Shown here: positions 3,243-55,575 of the stretch, one piece after another
Layout: each line of letters opens with the position of its first letter
Numbering within the stretch: the first letter of the stretch is position 1
DNA from: an uncultured Mycoplasmatota bacterium
GTDB taxonomy: Bacteria > Bacillota_I > Bacilli_A > RF39 > UBA660
DNA length: 60,838 nucleotides
Direction: 5' to 3'
Assembly: GCA_947570175.1 (NCBI GenBank)
Contig: CANOTJ010000008.1
Span: 1-60,838, forward strand
Notes under the pieces: generated by a model
Database searches by the model: none
What the model was told of the DNA's origin: nothing
Seen by the model: the letters and a program-made list of their open reading frames with translations, nothing else
Program-made: the position numbers and the translations under genes

Positions 3243-5693
3243 ATGGATAATTTAAAATTGAATAACATAGTAACAGAAATGAAGGATTCATTTATTGAAT
3301 ATTCATTAAGTGTAATTATATCTCGTGCGCTTCCAGATTTAAGAGATGGTTTAAAACCTGTACATAGAAGAATATTATATACAATGTTAGAATCTGGATT
3401 TACTCCAGATAAAGCATATGTAAAATGTGCTAAAACAGTCGGAGCAGTAATTGGTAATTACCATCCACATGGAGATACTGCTGTTTATGATGCTATGGTA
3501 AGAATGGCTCAAGATTTTAGCTTTAGACATCCTTTAATAGATGGACATGGTAATTTTGGATCTATTGATGGTAGTACTGCAGCAGCATATCGTTATACTG
3601 AATCAAAAATTTCTAAAATTGCAATGGAATTAGTTAGAGATATCAATAAAAATACAGTAAATTTAATTGATAATTTTGATGCTTCTAGAAAGGAACCAGA
3701 GGTTTTACCAAGTAGATTTCCAAATATTTTAGTAAATGGAACAATGGGAATTGCTGTGGGAATGGCTACTAATATACCTCCACATAATTTAGGCGAAGTT
3801 ATTGATGGATGTATTGCATATATAGAAAATCCAGATATTGATATTTTAGGTCTTATGGAATATATTAAAGGGCCAGATTTTCCAACTGGAGGATCAATAT
3901 TAGGAAATAGTGGAATTAAGAAAGCCTATGAAATAGGAAAAGGAACAATAGCAATACGAGGCAAAGTGGATGTTGTAGAGAAAAAAGATCGTTATGAATT
4001 AATTATAACAGAAGTACCATATCAGGTTAATACCTCTTCATTAATTACAAGAATTGCTGAATTAGTTAGAGATAAAATAATAGATGGAATAGCAGATTTA
4101 AGAGAAGAAACTTCTTTCAAAGATGGGATGAAAATTGTTATTGAATTAAAGCGAGATGCAAATCCAAATGTTGTTTTGAACAATTTATATAAACATACAC
4201 AGTTACAATCCTCATATGGAATTAATATGTTAATGTTATATCAAGGAAAACCTCAAATTTTGGGGCTAAAAGATATTATTAGATATTATATTGATTTTCA
4301 AAAAGAAGTTATTTATAGGAGAACAGAATTTGAATTAAATAAAGCAATCAAGAGAGCACATATTTTAGAAGGATTAAAGATAGCCTTAGATCATATTGAT
4401 GAAGTAATTAAAATTATAAAAGAATCAAAAAGTGATATTTTGGCAAAAGAAAAATTAGTATCAAAATTTAATTTAGATGAGATTCAATCTGAAGCTATTT
4501 TAGAAATGAAATTAAGAAAATTAACTGGATTAGAGAAAGATAAAATATTGTCTGAATTAAATGAATTACTTCAAACAATCGAAAATTTAAAAGATATTTT
4601 ATCTAGCGAAGATAAAATTTTAAATGTAATAAAAAATGAGTTGATTGAAATCAAAGAAAAATATAGTGAAAGTAGAAAAACAGAGATAGATATGTCTTCA
4701 ATCGAATATATTGAAGATGAATCTTTAATCCCAGTAGAAGATATTGTTATTACACTTACACAGAATGGATATATTAAAAGAATGAATAGTAATAATTATA
4801 AAAGTCAAAATAGAGGTGGAGTAGGAATTAAAGGCATGGCTACTAATGAAGAAGATTATGTTCAAAATTTATTAACTATGACAACTCATGATTATATTTT
4901 ATTCTTTACTAATAAAGGAAAAGTATATCGTATTAAGGGCTATGAAATTCCACTATTTAGTAGGCAATCTAAAGGATTACCGATTGTTAATTTATTACCA
5001 ATAGAGAAAGATGAAATCGTAACTACTATGTTAAAAATAGATAGAGATGAGTCTTCTAATTATATTGTATTTTGTACACAAAAAGGATTAATTAAAAGAA
5101 CAAATGTAAAAGAATTTAATAACATAAGAAAAAATGGGAAAATAGCTATTACTTTAAAAGAAGACGATGAATTAATAGCTGCTAGAAAGACCGATGGTAA
5201 TAATGAAATCTTAATTGCTTCTACAAATGGACGAATGATTCGTTTTATGGAATCAGAAATTAGAATTATGGGAAGAACAGCTTCAGGAGTTAAAGGAATA
5301 GATATTGGAGCAGGAAAATGTGTTGGTTGTGAAATTACTACAGATAATCAACAAATTTTGGTAGTAACAGAAAAAGGTTATGGAAAAAGAACTTCCGTAA
5401 ATGAATATCGAATGACGCATCGAGGAAGCAAAGGTGTTAAAGCTTTAAATATAACAGAAAAGAATGGAAATATTGTTTCATTTAAAGTAGTAACAGGAAA
5501 TGAGGATTTAGTTATTATCACAGATAGTGGAATGATTATTAGATTACCATTAGAACAGGTATCTACTACTGGAAGAGTTGCCCAGGGTGTAAAATTAATT
5601 AATTTAAAAGAAAATCAGAAAGTTAGTACTGTGACTCTTATGGAAAAGGAAGAAGAAAATATTACTGAGGAATATTTAATAGAAGAAGAATAA
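3243..5693 (+). CDS. gyrA: DNA gyrase subunit A
   Basis: GyrA is the DNA-cleaving subunit of gyrase. The 816-residue protein has the winged-helix catalytic domain with the active-site Tyr118 in AAAYRYTE, followed by a coiled coil and a C-terminal beta-pinwheel. A GyrA-box-like QNRGGVG near residue 523 supports gyrase rather than topoisomerase IV. In the quinolone-determining region the position matching E. coli Ser83 is Thr79 and the Asp87 match is Asp83; this Thr may affect quinolone binding, but I cannot tell phenotype from it. A strong terminator follows the gene. Confidence 0.97.
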   Translation: MDNLKLNNIVTEMKDSFIEYSLSVIISRALPDLRDGLKPVHRRILYTMLESGFTPDKAYVKCAKTVGAVIGNYHPHGDTAVYDAMVRMAQDFSFRHPLIDGHGNFGSIDGSTAAAYRYTESKISKIAMELVRDINKNTVNLIDNFDASRKEPEVLPSRFPNILVNGTMGIAVGMATNIPPHNLGEVIDGCIAYIENPDIDILGLMEYIKGPDFPTGGSILGNSGIKKAYEIGKGTIAIRGKVDVVEKKDRYELIITEVPYQVNTSSLITRIAELVRDKIIDGIADLREETSFKDGMKIVIELKRDANPNVVLNNLYKHTQLQSSYGINMLMLYQGKPQILGLKDIIRYYIDFQKEVIYRRTEFELNKAIKRAHILEGLKIALDHIDEVIKIIKESKSDILAKEKLVSKFNLDEIQSEAILEMKLRKLTGLEKDKILSELNELLQTIENLKDILSSEDKILNVIKNELIEIKEKYSESRKTEIDMSSIEYIEDESLIPVEDIVITLTQNGYIKRMNSNNYKSQNRGGVGIKGMATNEEDYVQNLLTMTTHDYILFFTNKGKVYRIKGYEIPLFSRQSKGLPIVNLLPIEKDEIVTTMLKIDRDESSNYIVFCTQKGLIKRTNVKEFNNIRKNGKIAITLKEDDELIAARKTDGNNEILIASTNGRMIRFMESEIRIMGRTASGVKGIDIGAGKCVGCEITTDNQQILVVTEKGYGKRTSVNEYRMTHRGSKGVKALNITEKNGNIVSFKVVTGNEDLVIITDSGMIIRLPLEQVSTTGRVAQGVKLINLKENQKVSTVTLMEKEEENITEEYLIEEE

Positions 5694-5697
5694 AATT

Positions 5698-5740
5698 AAA
5701 ATACCTTAAGGTAAATAATTACATACTTTAAGGTATTTTT
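5698..5740 (+). terminator. Intrinsic terminator after gyrA
   Basis: A 12-bp A/T-rich stem (5698-5709 paired with 5728-5739) is followed by a T-run. It starts 5 bases after the gyrA stop and ends the recF-gyrB-gyrA unit. Confidence 0.75.
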
Positions 5741-5763
5741 ATATTCAAAATATAAAAATTTTT

Positions 5764-5785
5764 CAATGTTTCACGTGAAACATTG
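5764..5785. other. parS centromere-like site 1
   Basis: The 16-mer TGTTTCACGTGAAACA at 5767-5782 is a perfect match to the bacterial parS consensus bound by Spo0J/ParB, inside a 22-bp perfect palindrome. ParA and ParB are encoded in the same window at 29.4-31.1 kb. Origin-proximal, intergenic parS sites are where ParB nucleates and loads SMC. Confidence 0.95.
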
Positions 5786-5980
5786 ATTTAAAAAAATTAA
5801 TATTTTAATTTTATTGATATATTTAAATTAGAAGAATATTTTAGAAAAAAAAGATAACTAAATATAAAATAATATATCCACAATATACTAGTTTAAGAAA
5901 ATATAAAAGCTTAAATAAAGATGAATAATTAAAAAATATGTATGATTAATTTGAAATACTAATTTTAATAAATAAAATTT
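5786..5980. other. AT-rich spacer between the two parS sites
   Basis: About 195 bases of very A/T-rich sequence without a credible reading frame, tRNA or hairpin terminator. One near-match to a DnaA box (ATATCCACA at 5874-5882, one mismatch to TTATCCACA) is present, but a single box is not evidence of an origin. I see nothing else here. Confidence 0.5.
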
Positions 5981-6008
5981 TATCAATGTTTCACGTGAAA
6001 CATTGATA
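5981..6008. other. parS centromere-like site 2
   Basis: A second perfect TGTTTCACGTGAAACA at 5987-6002, set in a 28-bp perfect palindrome that is longer than that of site 1. Its centre is 220 bp from the centre of the first site. It sits just upstream of the SRP RNA promoter. Confidence 0.95.
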
Positions 6009-6015
6009 GATATAG

Positions 6016-6047
6016 TTGAAAAAAAAATAAAAATAGGTTAATATTAT
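6016..6047 (+). promoter_or_regulatory. Putative SRP RNA promoter
   Basis: TATTAT at 6042-6047 is a plausible -10 about 5 bases before the RNA start. TTGAAA at 6016-6021 could be the -35, but the 20-bp spacer is longer than ideal. Confidence 0.45.
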
Positions 6048-6050
6048 ATA

Positions 6051-6128
6051 CGACACAACATTTATATTTGAATCAGGTCAGGATCGGAAGATAGCAGCCT
6101 TAAGAATCTCTAAATGTGTGTGTCTTTT
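6051..6128 (+). ncRNA. ffs: Small signal recognition particle RNA (4.5S type)
   Basis: The RNA of the signal recognition particle, which with Ffh targets nascent membrane proteins. The conserved apical domain GGTCAGGATCGGAAGATAGC (6077-6096) is the Ffh-binding loop with its GGAA tetraloop. The two ends pair: GACACA plus ACATTTA at the 5' side with TAAATGT plus TGTGTC at the 3' side (6052-6065 and 6111-6124, one bulge). A T-run from 6125 completes an intrinsic terminator. It is the short form without an Alu domain, although many Bacilli and Clostridia carry the long form. It sits directly before tadA and dnaX, as the scr gene does in Bacillus. Confidence 0.93.
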
Positions 6129-6146
6129 TTTATGGATGGTGTTGGT

Positions 6147-6581
6147 ATGAAAAATATAGAATATATGAAAGTAGCTTTAAAAGAGGCAAATAAGGCTTAT
6201 ATCAAAGATGAAGTTCCAGTAGGAGCAGTAATTGTTCGAAATGATGAAATAATATCTAAAGGCTATAATCAAAAAGAAATTTCAAAAAATGCAATTAAAC
6301 ATGCAGAATTAATTGCAATTGATAAAGCATGTAAAAAAATGAATAGTTGGCATTTAGATGATTGTATTTTATATACTACATTGGAACCTTGTTTAATGTG
6401 CATGGGGGCAATTTTAGAATGTAGAATTAAGAAAATTTATTATGCAATATCTAATGAAAAATATGGTAGTATAAAATATTTAAGCGATCAACAATTATCA
6501 AAAATGCAGATAGAAAAAGGAATATGTGAAAAGGAATCTCTATTCTTATTACAAAATTTTTTTCAAAATAAAAGAAATTAA
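6147..6581 (+). CDS. tadA: tRNA-specific adenosine deaminase TadA
   Basis: TadA makes inosine at the wobble position of tRNA-Arg(ACG). The zinc deaminase motifs are clear: HAE (His52, Glu54) and PCLMC (Cys82, Cys85), counted from the start chosen here. In-frame ATGs exist at 6114 and 6132, but 6114 lies inside the SRP RNA and 6132 in its terminator. The ATG at 6147 has GGATGGTG about 5 bases ahead and starts where the family normally starts (MKNIEYMK). With this start the protein has 144 residues. It may be partly transcribed by readthrough from the SRP RNA. Confidence 0.93.
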   Translation: MKNIEYMKVALKEANKAYIKDEVPVGAVIVRNDEIISKGYNQKEISKNAIKHAELIAIDKACKKMNSWHLDDCILYTTLEPCLMCMGAILECRIKKIYYAISNEKYGSIKYLSDQQLSKMQIEKGICEKESLFLLQNFFQNKRN

Positions 6582-6607
6582 ATCAACTTTAATATTTTAT
6601 TTGAAAA

Positions 6608-6616
6608 TGATATAAT
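6608..6616 (+). promoter_or_regulatory. Extended -10 promoter of dnaX
   Basis: TGA-TATAAT (hexamer 6611-6616) lies 15 bases before the dnaX ATG, giving a very short leader with a GGTGG ribosome site. No clear -35. Confidence 0.5.
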
Positions 6617-6631
6617 AAGTATGGTGGTAAT

Positions 6632-8251
6632 ATGTATCAAACATTATATAGAAAATATAGGCCTTCTAATTTAGATGAAGTTGCAGGTCAGAAGGTAATA
6701 ATAAGAACATTAAAAAATGCAATTAAACAGAATAAATTATCACATGCTTATTTATTTACAGGACCAAGGGGAACAGGAAAAACAAGTGTAGCAAAGATTT
6801 TAGCAAGAACAGTTAACTGTACTTCTTTGGTTGAAACAAATCCATGTAATCAATGTAATAATTGTAAAGAAAATTTAAAACAGCCTATTGATATTATAGA
6901 AATAGATGCTGCTTCTAATAATGGAGTAGACGAGATTAGAGAAATAAAAAATAAAGTAAATTTAGTTCCATCAATTAATAAATATAAAGTTTATATCATA
7001 GATGAAGTTCATATGTTAACAGCAGGTGCTTTTAATGCATTATTAAAAACACTTGAAGAACCTCCTTCACATGTTATTTTTATCTTGGCAACAACAGAAC
7101 CACATAAAATACCTATGACTATTTTATCTAGATGTCAACGTTTTGATTTTCAAAAAATAAATATGGATGAAATTGTTCATAGATTGAGATACATATCTGA
7201 AAAAGAGAATATCTTGATAAGTGAAGATTGCTTAAAAGAAATTGCTAGAATATCAAGTGGAGGAATGCGGGATGCTATAGGAATTTTAGATCAAGCTAGT
7301 GCTTATTCAGATGAAAGAATTACTCTAGAAGATATTTATGAAATAAATGGATCATTGTCATCATTAGAAATAAAAGAATTTATTGAAAATTTACATAAAC
7401 AAAATTTAGAACAGTTAATTCAGTTGATAGAGTTTTATAATGAAAAAGGAAAAAATTTTTCTAAGTTAACAGAAGATATACTATTTTATTTAAGAAACAT
7501 TTTATTAAAGAATAATGTTCCAGATTATTTTTTATCATTGAAATTGGAATATGAAGAATATGATATTCAAATTGAAAATCAAAAATTAATGAATTGGATA
7601 GATCATTTTAATACAATGATTTTAGAATTAAAAAAGGTTAGTAATTCTAAATTGTTTTTTGAATTGAATATTATAAAATTATTGAATAATGATTCAAAAT
7701 CTCAAGTAATTAAAAAGAAAAGTGAATATGGAAAAAAAGAATTAATCGTAAATAAAAAAGTTAATCAAAAAAAATCAGAGAATGAGATTAATTTTGAAAC
7801 ATTAGAAAAACTAAAATCTATTAGGATTAATAATACTTTGTGTAATTTTAACAAAAAAGAGTATTTAGATTTCAAAGATAAGATAGAAGAAGTTCATCAA
7901 TTGCTTATTGATCCAGATTATAGTGAATGTGCATCCATTATTTTAGATGGTACTATGAAAGCAGCTGGAAATAATCATTTTATATTTGTATTTGATACAG
8001 AGCATGGTACAAATTTATATAATGAAAAATTAAATCAAATAGATAAACTATTTAAGTTTAAATTTCATGATACTTTTAGGAGTATAGCTGTAAATAAAAA
8101 AGAATGGGAAAAAATAAAAAAATCATTTAATAGTAAAGAAATATTATATGAATTTAAAAAAGAACCAAATGATTTAATAGATAAATTAATTTTAAAAAAA
8201 AGTGAGAATAATATTGAAGAAGACTTTGGAAATATAGTAGAATATAATTAA
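6632..8251 (+). CDS. dnaX: DNA polymerase III subunits gamma and tau
   Basis: DnaX is the motor of the clamp loader. The AAA+ domain has Walker A GPRGTGKT at residues 44-51, the zinc-binding cysteines 63, 72, 75 and 78, Walker B IDEVH at 123-127 and the sensor-1 region ending in LSRCQRF. Residues after about 370 form a Lys/Asn-rich linker and a C-terminal domain. At 539 residues it is close to B. subtilis DnaX. It is followed 19 bases later by ybaB and recR, a strongly conserved dnaX-ybaB-recR unit. Confidence 0.97.
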   Translation: MYQTLYRKYRPSNLDEVAGQKVIIRTLKNAIKQNKLSHAYLFTGPRGTGKTSVAKILARTVNCTSLVETNPCNQCNNCKENLKQPIDIIEIDAASNNGVDEIREIKNKVNLVPSINKYKVYIIDEVHMLTAGAFNALLKTLEEPPSHVIFILATTEPHKIPMTILSRCQRFDFQKINMDEIVHRLRYISEKENILISEDCLKEIARISSGGMRDAIGILDQASAYSDERITLEDIYEINGSLSSLEIKEFIENLHKQNLEQLIQLIEFYNEKGKNFSKLTEDILFYLRNILLKNNVPDYFLSLKLEYEEYDIQIENQKLMNWIDHFNTMILELKKVSNSKLFFELNIIKLLNNDSKSQVIKKKSEYGKKELIVNKKVNQKKSENEINFETLEKLKSIRINNTLCNFNKKEYLDFKDKIEEVHQLLIDPDYSECASIILDGTMKAAGNNHFIFVFDTEHGTNLYNEKLNQIDKLFKFKFHDTFRSIAVNKKEWEKIKKSFNSKEILYEFKKEPNDLIDKLILKKSENNIEEDFGNIVEYN

Positions 8252-50962: not shown

Positions 50963-52015
50963 ATGGATTTAGCCCAATTTATTTTAAAAAAAATGCCTAC
51001 GGATTTATCAGAAATAGAAAAGGCAAGGTATTTATATATTGAATTAGCTAGACGGGTAACTTTTAGTACTACTTTCCAGAATACAGATGCTAAAACCTTT
51101 TTTAAAATGTATAAAGCAACAGTTGATGTTAGACATTTAGAAAACTTTCAAGTTAACTGTGTAATGTGGGCACAATTGTATTCTCAACTTCTAAACATCA
51201 CAGGTATTAAAAATAGTATAATCAATGCTGGTCATCAATATGTAGAATTTTATATTGATGATAGGAAGATGATTGCTGATGCAACCGAGGGAACTTATAC
51301 AGATTTATCACGAATTAGGAATTATGACCATACAAAATATTTCGGACCAAGTATTTTTCAAAGATCAGACTCTAAAAACAATGCTATTGATTTTACACAG
51401 GACTGGATGAAAGAACTTCATGGTATTGATAAAAAAATTGGATATCATTGTGATAAGGGTAAAAAATTAAAAGATTTAAAAACTTTATTAGTTCAAATTC
51501 GCGAAAGCTCTTTAGATTTAAAAGAAATTTTCCCATATGGAAAAATTACGAAAGAAGAAGAATTATGTTTTAAATTAGAATTTTTATATGAAACTATAGG
51601 AATAATGAGTGATGGATATTATGAATCAAAGGATTTTGTGAAATATTTACAAGATATGCTGTTAAATGAGGAAGAAAAAAAACAGATAGGGTCCGTAGAG
51701 CTAAAAAGGACAAATGGGGATGGGAAAGTAGATATTATTCAATGTATTTATGTTCAGTTTTTAGATGATTTTAAGTATTATCTTTTGACTCCAAATCTTC
51801 CAATTCAGCAGTTTAATAAAAGCCAAATTCAATCTCTAGCTGTAAAAGGTTATGGAATTGACAAGAAAAAATTACCTGGGGTATCTTTTCCTAGAAAATT
51901 TATAGCAGGAAAGATAAATAAAAATTTGATATATAAATTATATCGAAAACTTCTTTTTAGAAATAAACAAGATAAGATTGATCTATATGCAGATCAAGAA
52001 AAGCGCCATCGATAG
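50963..52015 (+). CDS. Transglutaminase-like (papain-fold) protein, function unknown
   Basis: A 350-residue protein without signal peptide or membrane segment. The first 120 residues look like a transglutaminase-like cysteine peptidase fold: a helix KARYLYIELARRVTF, then Cys66 in VNCVMWAQLYSQLL, His91 in NAGHQYVEF and Asp106 in MIADATEGTY, in the right order and spacing for a Cys-His-Asp triad. The rest has no motif I know and ends very basic. Similar segments occur in cytoplasmic and effector-like proteins of Firmicutes. The substrate is unknown. A weak own promoter is possible (TTGAAA at 50903). Confidence 0.6.
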   Translation: MDLAQFILKKMPTDLSEIEKARYLYIELARRVTFSTTFQNTDAKTFFKMYKATVDVRHLENFQVNCVMWAQLYSQLLNITGIKNSIINAGHQYVEFYIDDRKMIADATEGTYTDLSRIRNYDHTKYFGPSIFQRSDSKNNAIDFTQDWMKELHGIDKKIGYHCDKGKKLKDLKTLLVQIRESSLDLKEIFPYGKITKEEELCFKLEFLYETIGIMSDGYYESKDFVKYLQDMLLNEEEKKQIGSVELKRTNGDGKVDIIQCIYVQFLDDFKYYLLTPNLPIQQFNKSQIQSLAVKGYGIDKKKLPGVSFPRKFIAGKINKNLIYKLYRKLLFRNKQDKIDLYADQEKRHR

Positions 52016-52063: not shown

Positions 52064-52822
52064 ATGAAAGCTTTAATAACAGGTGCATCATCAGGATTGG
52101 GAAAGGATTTTGCTAAAATATTAAGTGGTATGGGATATGATTTAATACTTGTTGCCAGAAGAACAGAACGATTACAGGATTTAAAGGATATTTTAACTAC
52201 TCAGATAGAGATTAAAACGCTAGACCTTTCTGATTATCAGAATTGTATAAAATTATATGATGAAGTTAAAGAACAACAAATTGATATTTTAATTAATAAT
52301 GCAGGATTTGGATTATTGGGAAAATTTTTTGAAACAAGTTTGGATAGGGAAATGCAAATGATTGATGTAAATATAAAGGCAGTTCATATTCTTACTAAAT
52401 TATTTTTAAGAGATTTTATGAATCGTGATAGTGGCTATATTTTAAATATATCTAGTAGTGCCTCCTTTTTTAGTGGACCCTTAATGAGTACATATTATGC
52501 TACTAAAAACTATGTAACTAGATTAACTGAAGCAATCTATAAAGAATTACAGGTGGTAAGAAGTAATGTTTACATAGGAGTATTTTGCCCTGGTCCAATT
52601 GCTACAGAGTTTAATCAAGTTGCCCAAGTTAAAGAGAATTTAAAAAGTTTAAACTCAGAGAAAGCAGCTAATTATGCAATACATCAGATGTTTTGCCGAA
52701 AATTTTTGATTATCCCAGGATTTATGAATAAATGTCTATATTTATTTAGAAATTTTATTCCAAATGCACTATTATTGGCAATTACTTATCGAATTCAGAA
52801 AAAGAAAGAAGGAAAAAAATGA
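52064..52822 (+). CDS. Short-chain dehydrogenase/reductase (SDR)
   Basis: A classical SDR of 252 residues. NAD(P)-binding TGASSGLGKDFA at residues 5-16, with Arg-Arg after the second strand (VARRTERL) that suggests NADPH. NNAGFG near residue 79, catalytic Ser in ISSSASF near 130, and YYATK near 145-149. The C-terminus has a hydrophobic stretch and a Lys-rich end, possibly membrane-associated. Substrate not predictable. Ends with ATGA overlap into the prepilin gene. Confidence 0.88.
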   Translation: MKALITGASSGLGKDFAKILSGMGYDLILVARRTERLQDLKDILTTQIEIKTLDLSDYQNCIKLYDEVKEQQIDILINNAGFGLLGKFFETSLDREMQMIDVNIKAVHILTKLFLRDFMNRDSGYILNISSSASFFSGPLMSTYYATKNYVTRLTEAIYKELQVVRSNVYIGVFCPGPIATEFNQVAQVKENLKSLNSEKAANYAIHQMFCRKFLIIPGFMNKCLYLFRNFIPNALLLAITYRIQKKKEGKK

Positions 52823-53163
52823 AGAAACAGGGATTTACATTGATAGAATTATTAGCTTGTTTAGCTGTTTTAGCAATCCTATCAGGAATTGTTTTATCAA
52901 ATGTTTATGAAACAAGTAAAAAGAAGAAGGAAGAAATTACAACTTATCAGCAAAAAATGATTACAGACGCTGCAGAGGCTTATATGGCGGATATGATTGA
53001 TAATACAAATATAGATTGTACTAATACAAATGTTTTGGTAGAGAAATTGATATCGGATGGATATTTATCTAATGAATATGGGAAATTTAAAAATCATAAA
53101 GTACTTATAACATGTACTAAAAAGGATTCTAATAATGTTTATACTTATGAACTAAGCTTGTAA
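52819..53163 (+). CDS. Type IV prepilin-like protein
   Basis: A 114-residue protein with a textbook prepilin N-terminus: KKQG-FTLIELLACLAVLAIL, where a prepilin peptidase would cut after Gly5 and Glu at mature position 5 is kept. A helix continues into a charged region, and two cysteines in the C-terminal part (DCTNTN and ITCTKK) could form a disulfide. No pilus ATPase, platform protein or peptidase lies nearby. Coupled to the SDR by ATGA overlap. Confidence 0.85.
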   Translation: MKKQGFTLIELLACLAVLAILSGIVLSNVYETSKKKKEEITTYQQKMITDAAEAYMADMIDNTNIDCTNTNVLVEKLISDGYLSNEYGKFKNHKVLITCTKKDSNNVYTYELSL

Positions 53164-53207: not shown

Positions 53208-53972
53208 ATGAAGAATCAAATTATAATGGAAGATATATCCTTTGCATATGGAAAAAATATTATTTTCTCTGGTTTATGCTTAAAAATAAAACAAGGGGAT
53301 TTTATAACAATATTAGGGTCAAATGCAAGTGGTAAGACTACTTTATCAGAAATTCTTGACTGTAAAATAAAATGTCAAGGAGAATGTATTATAAATGCTC
53401 ATACTGTAGTGGTATCTTCGGATAGTAAACTTTATTATGATACGCTGCAGGAAGAATTAGAACAGCAATTATTTCCTCCTCATTTAACAAAGAAGAAAAG
53501 GAAAGAAAGAATTCAAGAATTAGTCGAAGCATTAGATATTTCACATTATTTAAATTATTCATGTCATTATCTTAGTGCTAGCGAATATGATTTATTCTTG
53601 ATTGCACGAGCATTAATAGTAGAACCAGAAGTAATAATCTTGGATGATATTCTATCGAATCTAACTTCATTTTATAGAGAGAAAGTATTTCAATATTTGA
53701 AAAGATTAAATAGGCAAAAGAAAATGTCTATTGTGAATATTACAACTAATTCTGAAGATAGTGTCTATGGAAAAGAGATTGCTTTTCTTTCAAACCAAAA
53801 GATTCTAAGTAGAAATAAGCAAAAAATAACATTATTAAATGATAAACCCTTTATTCAAAATAATATTGATTATCCTTTTATGGCAGATTTATCATTAAAA
53901 TTAAAATATTATGGGTTAGTAGAGGATTTGATTTTGAAAGATAATAAAATGGTGGATTTATTATGGAAATAA
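53208..53972 (+). CDS. EcfA1-like ABC ATPase with degenerate motifs
   Basis: An ABC ATPase in the place of ecfA1 (between rplQ and truA in Firmicutes), 254 residues. Walker A GSNASGKTT near residues 38-46 is intact. Other motifs are degraded: no clear Q-loop Gln, the signature reads LSASE instead of LSGGQ, Walker B ends IILDD with Asp for the catalytic Glu, and the H-loop His is absent (NITTNSED). The C-terminal half is little conserved. It may bind but hardly hydrolyse ATP. GGTGATATT precedes the ATG. It overlaps the next gene by 10 bases. Confidence 0.72.
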   Translation: MKNQIIMEDISFAYGKNIIFSGLCLKIKQGDFITILGSNASGKTTLSEILDCKIKCQGECIINAHTVVVSSDSKLYYDTLQEELEQQLFPPHLTKKKRKERIQELVEALDISHYLNYSCHYLSASEYDLFLIARALIVEPEVIILDDILSNLTSFYREKVFQYLKRLNRQKKMSIVNITTNSEDSVYGKEIAFLSNQKILSRNKQKITLLNDKPFIQNNIDYPFMADLSLKLKYYGLVEDLILKDNKMVDLLWK

Positions 53973-54790
53973 AATTTGATCATGTGGACTATAAATATAA
54001 AAAAATCAATTATAAGGATAAAGAGGTGTTAAAAGGAATTAACATAACATTTCAGGAAGGTAAAATTAATGCCTTAGTTGGTTGTGGAAAGACCACACTT
54101 CTTCATTTAATAATAGGAATGTTAAAACCTACTTCTGGAAATCTTTATATAGATCAAAAAGATATAACTTCGATTGATTCTTTAAGTATACCATTTGATA
54201 TAGGTTTTTTATATCAAAATCCAGAAGAATACTTTTCAGAAGAAATTGTATCAAATGAATTAGAACTTCAATTGAAAAGATATCATTACCATTTAGATGA
54301 GAAAGAGAAAAGGATTCTGTCTTCCTTAATTATGGTTGGATTAGATGAGAGTTTTTTAAATAAAAAAATTTGTCACTTAAGTAGTAGTGAAAAAAGAAAA
54401 TTATCGCTTGCTTCTGCTTTAATTTTAAATCCTAAATGTCTTATATTAGATGAACCAACGTCAAACATGGATAAAGAGTTTAAAAAGATGTTAATAAAGT
54501 TATTAAGAATGTTAAAAAAAAGATATAAAAAAACGATTATCATTGCTAGCAATGATACAGATTTTCTTTTACAAATAGCTGATTATGTATATGTTTTAGC
54601 AGATCAAAAGGTAGTTTTAGAAGGAAAGAATATAGATGTTTTTAAGATGGAATCTGTATTTCACAAATATCATATTTCTGTTCCAAAAATTATTAATTTT
54701 GAAAACTTAGTTTTAAAAAAGAAAAATATTAAACTCGGTTACAGAAATGACATTAATGATTTAATTAAAGATATATATCGTAATTATTAA
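53963..54790 (+). CDS. EcfA2-like ABC ATPase with shortened Walker A
   Basis: An ABC ATPase in the place of ecfA2, 275 residues. The family normally reads ALVG-H-T-G-S-GKST; here it is ALVGCGKTT, three residues short, so the first P-loop Gly is missing. The Q-loop (LYQNPEEYF), the signature LSSSEKRKLSLA and Walker B ILDEPTSNMD are recognisable, but the H-loop His is Asn (IIASNDTD). EcfT, which should follow, is absent and truA comes next. Partner of the preceding gene by overlap. Confidence 0.75.
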   Translation: MEIKFDHVDYKYKKINYKDKEVLKGINITFQEGKINALVGCGKTTLLHLIIGMLKPTSGNLYIDQKDITSIDSLSIPFDIGFLYQNPEEYFSEEIVSNELELQLKRYHYHLDEKEKRILSSLIMVGLDESFLNKKICHLSSSEKRKLSLASALILNPKCLILDEPTSNMDKEFKKMLIKLLRMLKKRYKKTIIIASNDTDFLLQIADYVYVLADQKVVLEGKNIDVFKMESVFHKYHISVPKIINFENLVLKKKNIKLGYRNDINDLIKDIYRNY

Positions 54791-54834
54791 AATACTTATT
54801 TATTAAATATAATAGAAGTGAAAAGAGGGATATC

Positions 54835-55575
54835 ATGAGATATTTTATGACATTTTCCTATGATGGAACAGAATATAAAGGATATCAGAAACAACCAAAT
54901 CAAAGAACAATTCAGGAAGAAATAGAAAAATGCTTAAAAAAGATTAATAATAATAAAGAGGTTGATCTTTATGCCTCAGGGCGCACAGATGCCCATGTAC
55001 ATGCTTTAAATCAAAAGGCCCATTTCAATTTAGATTCTATCATTGATTCTACTAACATAAAAAAAGCGCTAAATAGTATGTTACCAAGAGATATCTATGT
55101 CAAACAGGTGGAACAAGTTGATGATGAATTCCATGCTCGTTTTAATGTTACAGGCAAGGAATATATTTATAAGATTAATATGGGAGAATATGATCCTATT
55201 GAAAAAGATTATGTGTATCAATATAATAAAAGGTTAGATGTTGTAGAAATTGAAAGGGCACTTAAATATATAGAGGGATATCATAATTTTAAAGCATTTA
55301 CAAAAGCAAGTGAAGAACAGAGTAATTATGAGAGAAATATCGTACAGGCCACATTAATTAGAAATTATAAAGATGTAAATAAAATCACAATTTCTTTAGT
55401 TGGGACAGGTTTCTTAAGATATATGGTAAGAAATATTGTAGGAACTTTAATCGAAATAGGAGAAGGAAAAAGAAAGAGTGAGGATATTATTACAATATTG
55501 GAGTCTCAGGATCGTAAGCAAGCTGGAAAAACAGCTAGTCCTGTTGGCTTATATTTGAAAGATGTTTTTTATTAA
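54835..55575 (+). CDS. truA: tRNA pseudouridine synthase A
   Basis: TruA makes pseudouridine at 38-40 of tRNA anticodon arms. 246 residues with SYDGTEYKGYQKQPN, the catalytic Asp in ASGRTDAHVHA near residue 52, FHARFNVTGKEY and FLRYMVRNIVGTL. AGAGGGAT precedes the ATG and a TATAAT lies at 54808-54813. rplM and rpsI, the usual followers, are not here. Confidence 0.96.
   Translation: MRYFMTFSYDGTEYKGYQKQPNQRTIQEEIEKCLKKINNNKEVDLYASGRTDAHVHALNQKAHFNLDSIIDSTNIKKALNSMLPRDIYVKQVEQVDDEFHARFNVTGKEYIYKINMGEYDPIEKDYVYQYNKRLDVVEIERALKYIEGYHNFKAFTKASEEQSNYERNIVQATLIRNYKDVNKITISLVGTGFLRYMVRNIVGTLIEIGEGKRKSEDIITILESQDRKQAGKTASPVGLYLKDVFY

Follow-up and report, generated by a model that had tools for sequence, protein, structure and literature searches.

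The EcfA-Like Pair and Its Locus

In the window, that is, the whole stretch of 60,838 nucleotides analysed here, two open reading frames coding for EcfA1-like and EcfA2-like proteins (A1 and A2) precede truA. The ancestral gene order in Bacilli is ecfA1-ecfA2-ecfT-truA (PMC8046335), and the pair occupies the corresponding position of the group II ECF module (Table 1). The first-pass annotation had claimed that the two ATPases are kept and ecfT is gone, and this was borne out: truA starts 44 bases past the stop of A2, and the ORF list holds no frame of EcfT size in between. The two genes are also, as had been stated, full length (254 aa and 275 aa) and overlapping, by 10 bases, with no internal stops in either frame. 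On the 5′ side, short-chain dehydrogenase and pseudopilin-like genes lie between rplQ and ecfA1 (52064-53163), and a dehydrogenase of the same type is found 5′ of ecfA1 in several relatives (L005, L026, L105, L110, L120). Just 3′ of rplQ, positions 50963-52015 code for a 350-aa protein for which Pfam and NCBIfam searches returned no matches.

Table 1. Features of the ecfA1-ecfA2-truA locus (window coordinates).
Feature	Position	Strand	Description	Basis
EcfA1-like subunit	53208..53972	+	254 aa; putatively ATP-binding, probably non-catalytic	ORF
A1 Walker A	53316..53342	+	GSNASGKTT, intact; half of the putative retained composite site	
A1 Q-loop region	53409-53426	+	VVSSDS, without Gln	
A1 signature	53571..53585	+	LSASE, degenerate	
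A1 Walker B	53631..53648	+	LDD, catalytic Glu replaced by Asp	
A1 H-loop	53736..53750	+	NITTN, without His	
A1 C-terminal tail	53868..53969	+	YPFMADLSLKLKYYGL ... MVDLLWK; best kept part of A1	alignment
EcfA2-like subunit	53963..54790	+	275 aa; Walker A collapsed	ORF
A2 Walker A	54077..54097	+	VGCGKTT, 3 residues short	
A2 signature	54377..54391	+	LSSSE; other half of the putative retained composite site	
A2 Walker B	54437-54454	+	LDE, intact	
A2 H-loop	54542..54556	+	IASND, His replaced by Asn	
A2 C-terminal tail	54728..54787	+	IKLGYRNDINDLIKDIYRNY; best kept part of A2	alignment
Gap between A2 stop and truA	54791..54834	+	site of ecfT in relatives	44 bases
truA	54835..55575	+	3′ neighbour; control gene and tree marker	ORF

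Both proteins match their subunit profiles far under the curated cut-off (TIGR04520 with an E-value of 7e-31 for A1, TIGR04521 with 1.7e-51 for A2). The ECF-ATPase fold and the C-terminal domains are nonetheless predicted to be intact in both of them: the AF2 model of A1 has a mean pLDDT of 95.2 and its best solved matches are ECF ATPases, C-terminal domain included, while that of A2 has a mean pLDDT of 92.7 and finds its best Foldseek match in EcfA 4mki (TM 0.90). The ATPase motifs are damaged, largely as the first-pass annotation had read them. In particular, A1 carries LSASE for LSGGQ, Asp for the catalytic Glu and no H-loop His; the Q-loop Gln is missing as well, though canonical relatives read FENPD at this place and thus already carry Glu. 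As for A2, the Q-loop Gln is present (YQNPEEYF), the replacement of the H-loop His by Asn was found as described, and the Walker A is indeed three residues short, although the motif ALVGCGKTT lies at 54071-54097, two bases off the position first given. At the C-terminal ends, residues P223, F224, L232, Y235 and W253 of A1 are invariant in an alignment of 31 sequences, and the A2 tail can be recognised even where a relative has lost most of its ATP-binding lobe. The exact shortening of the A2 Walker A by three residues, that is, the same 9-bp loss that was proposed for inspection in relatives, recurs in 22 of the 121 distinct loci; on the truA tree it arose about five times, and supported branches force at least three of these origins.

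Composite ATP Sites

In ABC dimers, each ATP is sandwiched by two subunits, one contributing its Walker A and the other its signature. Site I was defined as the A1 Walker A, the A1 Walker B Glu and the A1 H-loop together with the A2 signature, and site II as the reverse. The pair of the window has a site I without Glu and His and a site II without Walker A, neither being catalytically complete. Of the earlier alternative between one composite active site and none, what stands is one putative ATP-binding site, by motifs, made of A1 Walker A and A2 signature, and the catalytic residues are gone.

The same motifs were scored in 34 distinct loci without EcfT (T-less loci). Thirty of them retain the A1 Walker A and 31 the A2 signature; the A2 Walker A survives in 18 (17 with a minimum length of eight residues) and the A1 signature in 18 (19 with an initial Met allowed). 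The catalytic Glu of A1 persists in a single locus, with Asn in 17 and Asp in 14, and the H-loop His is found in one A1 and three A2 sequences. Judged by motifs, at least one ATP-binding composite site survives in 33/34 loci, usually formed by A1 Walker A and A2 signature, the exception being L135 with its shortened A1; three loci keep the A2 Walker A and the A1 signature instead, so that the retained site is not constant. Loss of the A1 signature goes with loss of the A2 Walker A, its counterpart within site II (15/4/2/13; Fisher p=0.0004), and no such association links Walker A to signature inside a single subunit, which served as the control (p=0.61). On the truA tree, state changes number 4 for the A1 Walker A, 6 for the A2 signature, 14 for the A2 Walker A and 18 for the A1 signature. 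An independent-pair test of motif co-loss on this tree has only six usable pairs and is without power; the co-loss at site II is significant when counted over loci, and shared ancestry may contribute to it. In 18 further diverged genera (14 T-less, four with a cryptic T), where the few automatic motif matches that hit the wrong Gly-Lys were replaced by readings from the sequences, the A1 Walker A is present in 18/18 and the A2 Walker A in one, and most keep a signature-like LSxxE in A2.

Loss of EcfT across the Family

The family of the window was surveyed with one genome per genus, for a total of 117 genera. Of these, 84 carry an EcfA2 ortholog, with a recognisable EcfT beside it in 46, a cryptic one in four (G057, G060, G085 and G103, with a remnant of 214-234 aa scoring at most 25 bits or placed by position alone) and none in about 34. 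In one T-less genus, G033, the contig ends past A2; in the others the gap between A2 and truA is mostly below 70 bases and at most about 250. Roughly 33 of the 117 genera have no pair by the A2 profile, and the genera g58 and g81 hold species with and species without the pair side by side. Mapped on the truA tree, the T label shows about 15 changes, at least five of them forced by well supported branches; the tree is a quick one with many open forks, and only the lower bound is firm. The T-less state of the window recurs in many uncultured relatives. Further named relatives are metagenome-assembled genomes of uncultured Bacilli, Tenericutes and Mollicutes, several of them from gut or rumen samples, and a search for relatives at the level of the order returned matches within one family throughout, which leaves the comparison without an outgroup. 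A search for EcfA pairs without EcfT found no paper in the literature collection that it covered.

Shortened and strongly diverged EcfT remnants of about 214-234 aa, open, in place and mostly without the SRG coupling motif, were observed at L108, L110, L115, L126, L199, L213, L216, L218, L219, L224, L226, L229 and L234. A separate T-containing lineage (L106, L111, L114, L117, L119) displays the opposite damage, with the Walker A of A1 deleted or wrecked and that of A2 largely kept.

As the first-pass annotation had proposed, the source genome was itself searched for EcfT and S components; the genome is a draft assembly of 1.38 Mb in 49 contigs and 90% complete. No CbiQ-type EcfT scores over the cut-off in it. 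The CbiQ profile PF02361 alone is too insensitive, having missed the diverged EcfT of G002, G005, G042, G048, G110 and others as well as the T protein on contig C13 of the source genome, and a family-specific T profile was therefore built. With this profile, the sole T-like protein of the whole assembly is the one on C13, within a FolT-A-T module. Likewise, the search for stand-alone S components, which covered PF12822, PF07155, PF09515 and PF07456, found only FolT, inside its own S-A-T module. With these profiles, neither EcfT nor S component was found outside this dedicated set. The module (L097) looks complete, with S at 6423-6944, A at 5642-6430 and T at 5076-5645, all on the minus strand; its S component matches the folate S component TIGR04518 with 128 bits, and its ATPase is canonical but for the H-loop (ITNNMDE), where Asn replaces His. 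G092 has a similar S-A-T set (L098). An intact second EcfA1A2T set, which would have spoken against the first reading, is not what the genome holds, given that the FolT module has a single ATPase, and the genes of the relatives are open rather than filled with stops.

EetB and a Possible Ancestral Cargo

Hardly any S components of PF12822, PF07155 or PF09515 occur across the family. EetB (PF07456) is found in 23 genera, specifically in 21 of the 46 with T and in two of the 33 where no A2 was detected. It occurs in none of the 38 genera that have EcfA2 but a cryptic T or none, nor in the genome of the window; the difference between T-containing genera and those with cryptic or absent T has a Fisher p-value of 2.6e-7. 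Four relatives were inspected; in each, apbE and an EetA-like gene adjoin that of EetB, joined in three of them by an FMN-binding-type lipoprotein gene, the names of neighbours other than PF07456 being our own reading of the sequences. Listeria has a FAD exporter in which EetB, as S component, works with EcfA/EcfA′ and the alternative T protein FmnA (PMC9973259). FAD export is thereby suggested as one ancestral job of the ECF module in this family.

All 21 T-containing genera with EetB have at least one catalytically complete composite site, 20 of them with the H-loop His too, which makes them a positive control for how sites were scored. Among T-containing genera without EetB a complete site is found in 13/24, and among T-less genera in 2/20. 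Exactly one complete site is present in nine of the EetB-carrying genera, namely site I in L007, L107, L121, L124 and L127 and site II in L012, L013, L017 and L020. A single catalytic mutation in either EcfA abolishes transport in L. delbrueckii (PMC10368641). The motif patterns of the nine genera suggest that one complete site may suffice for an ECF motor. In L124 (G022), the Ser-Thr repeat STSTSTSTL replaces the A2 Walker A, yet T and EetB are kept. The likely order of events would be that the cargo was lost first, followed by the catalytic residues, after which T would have degenerated and finally disappeared.

Selection on the Pair in Relatives

The ratio dN/dS, which was also proposed at the outset, was estimated by the Nei-Gojobori method with bootstrap limits; with dS close to or beyond 1 in many comparisons, the figures are rough. 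They come from relatives only, as the genus of the window is represented by one genome, with no second species for comparison. In the pair L028-L188, dN/dS is 0.10 (0.06-0.16) for A1, 0.10 (0.06-0.16) for A2 and 0.06 for truA, and in L164-L174 the respective values are 0.29, 0.15 and 0.22. Values for A1 and A2 are 0.16 and 0.23 in L207-L210, 0.29 and 0.25 in L172-L200, 0.37 and 0.32 in G004-G121, and 0.41 and 0.54 (upper limit 0.80) in G013-G140, in which the A2 of one member is without most of its ATP-binding lobe. Overall, T-less relatives range from 0.10 to 0.56, with no bootstrap upper limit above 0.80 and none of the ratios near neutrality. Values of 0.4-0.56 belong to some T-less lineages whose ATP-binding lobe is strongly eroded and whose truA is much better conserved. 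Low ratios are also found where T is kept and the A2 Walker A deleted (L115, L213, L216, L218). The T-less relatives of the pair are hence under purifying selection. The open frames, and a dN/dS of at most 0.56 in T-less relatives, speak against pseudogenes or relics with loss of frame or neutral evolution.

A Probably Repurposed ATPase Pair and the Alternatives

The first-pass annotation had left the choice between a decaying ECF module and a repurposed pair of pseudo-ATPases. The relatives favour a repurposed pair with one composite site, with decay as part of the story. Specifically, it appears reasonably probable that a former transporter motor has been kept as an ATP-binding, probably non-hydrolysing heterodimer with a new, non-transport role; we infer both the ATP binding and the new role from sequence. 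This reading is favoured because dN/dS is well below 1, because the composite sites follow a pairwise logic and because the A1 Walker A persists in the most eroded pairs. The pair would be the surviving ATPase heterodimer of an ECF module that has lost EcfT and its S component. A1 and A2 would still associate head to tail and hold one ATP, with the A1 Walker A on one side of it and the LSSSE signature of A2 on the other; the site of the A2 Walker A would be empty and hydrolysis negligible. The dimer would then be cytosolic, in a long-lived, ATP-bound closed state, and might act as an ATP-dependent scaffold or as a sensor of the energy state for some partner. The C-terminal helical domains, being the most conserved, are the likely dimer lock and possibly the partner-binding site; by its position alone, TruA is the obvious first candidate for a partner. 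This scheme has precedents in ECF biochemistry. No EcfT is needed for the isolated soluble ECF ATPase pair of T. maritima to close on ATP; in the module of L. delbrueckii, both hydrolysis and transport are abolished by Glu-to-Gln mutations of the catalytic residue, the double mutant having been solved in a closed, ATP-bound form (PMC10368641). For the Asp and Asn variants such Gln mutants are an analogy and would be no proof of inactivity. As the pair is missing from about 33/117 genera and from single species of g58 and g81, its role must be dispensable in some settings.

The main rival to repurposing is slow decay, in which loss of the cargo, be it FAD export or another, is followed by that of the catalytic residues, of T and S and then of the ATPases, the open frames being transient. 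Both readings fit much of the gradient, which begins with intact modules and passes by way of degenerate and T-less ones to complete absence, with neither gene, by the A2 profile, in about 33/117 genera and with pair-bearing and pairless species within g81 and g58. Decay is also consistent with the faster evolution of the pair relative to truA, at a dN/dS of up to 0.56, and with the erosion of Walker A and signature. Neutral drift at dS near 1, however, predicts many stops, while the A1 and A2 genes read in T-less loci are open, and dN/dS is well below 1 in each T-less pair measured. Moreover, the two halves of one site are lost together while the other site is kept, and even the most diverged pairs retain the A1 Walker A as well as the two C-terminal tails. 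On balance decay is a rather unlikely explanation for the pair, although selection on the catalytic half has been relaxed and decay is part of its history.

That the pair still powers transport with a T from elsewhere, either that of the C13 FolT-A-T module or an unrecognised membrane protein, is considerably less probable. T proteins can be swapped, as EcfA/EcfA′ of Listeria serve both EcfT and FmnA (PMC9973259), some T proteins of the family are so diverged that position alone identifies them, and the genome does have one T-like protein. Nevertheless, the C13 module carries its own ATPase, the family T and CbiQ profiles reveal no further T, and neither composite site of the pair is complete, whereas single catalytic mutants of either EcfA are enough to abolish transport (PMC10368641). 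Even less credit is due to the proposal that the genes are a mere translated leader coupling ribosomes to truA, their proteins being idle: A1, A2 and truA do overlap or nearly abut in nearly all T-less loci, but low dN/dS ratios indicate that the amino-acid sequence is selected, and retention is motif-specific. Lastly, a sequencing or assembly error behind the 9-base gap and the other damage, conceivable in a draft of 49 contigs, was rejected with near certainty, since the identical deletion and the same class of changes recur in many independently assembled genomes and the frames are intact.

Relation to Known Systems

The pair resembles the EcfA1-EcfA2-EcfT module of group II in Bacilli in its operon position before truA, fold, pairing of subunits and C-terminal domains, and differs from it in having no EcfT, no shared S component and no catalytically complete ATP site. 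ABC heterodimers with one degenerate nucleotide-binding site, such as TAP, CFTR, TmrAB and TM287/288 (PMC7756269), have asymmetric sites like the pair, in which Glu has become Asp or Asn and the H-loop is changed within the retained site; by analogy with their degenerate sites, the latter should bind ATP without hydrolysis. These heterodimers have a membrane domain and one site of the consensus type, both of which are missing from the pair of the window; the nine relatives with T, EetB and exactly one complete site come closer to them. The head-to-tail dimer with nucleotide in a degenerate site is putative, and the co-loss of motifs lends it indirect support. A laboratory analogue of the proposed state is the 2EQ catalytic-mutant ECF module (PDB 8BMS, PMC10368641), which is dead for hydrolysis, closed and ATP-bound; it differs in being engineered, in having both sites occupied and in containing EcfT. 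Several T-containing relatives share with the EetB-FmnA-EcfA-EcfA′ FAD exporter of Listeria (PMC9973259) an EetB-family S component, ApbE and an FMN-binding-type lipoprotein, but, unlike in the exporter, EetB is absent from the genome of the window and from each T-less genus. Finally, the soluble ABC-F and ABCE proteins have two nucleotide-binding domains per chain and hydrolyse ATP, whereas the pair consists of two chains in which catalytic residues are absent.

Implications

A broader generalisation can be put forward only tentatively, namely that ECF ATPase pairs of this family have repeatedly and independently become soluble, hydrolysis-dead scaffolds or sensors that hold a single ATP and serve new partners, as a class of non-transport ABC proteins. 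If true, a transport motor would, on many occasions, have outlived its transporter in the form of an ATP-binding pair. Dozens of genera span the intermediates, with two complete sites, one site with cargo, none with T still present, T-less pairs and extreme erosion, and the family would thus offer a natural record of how ABC ATPases turn into pseudo-enzymes and of which composite-site halves are mutually dependent. As far as annotation is concerned, EcfA matches in uncultured Bacilli of this kind would be no sign of vitamin uptake.
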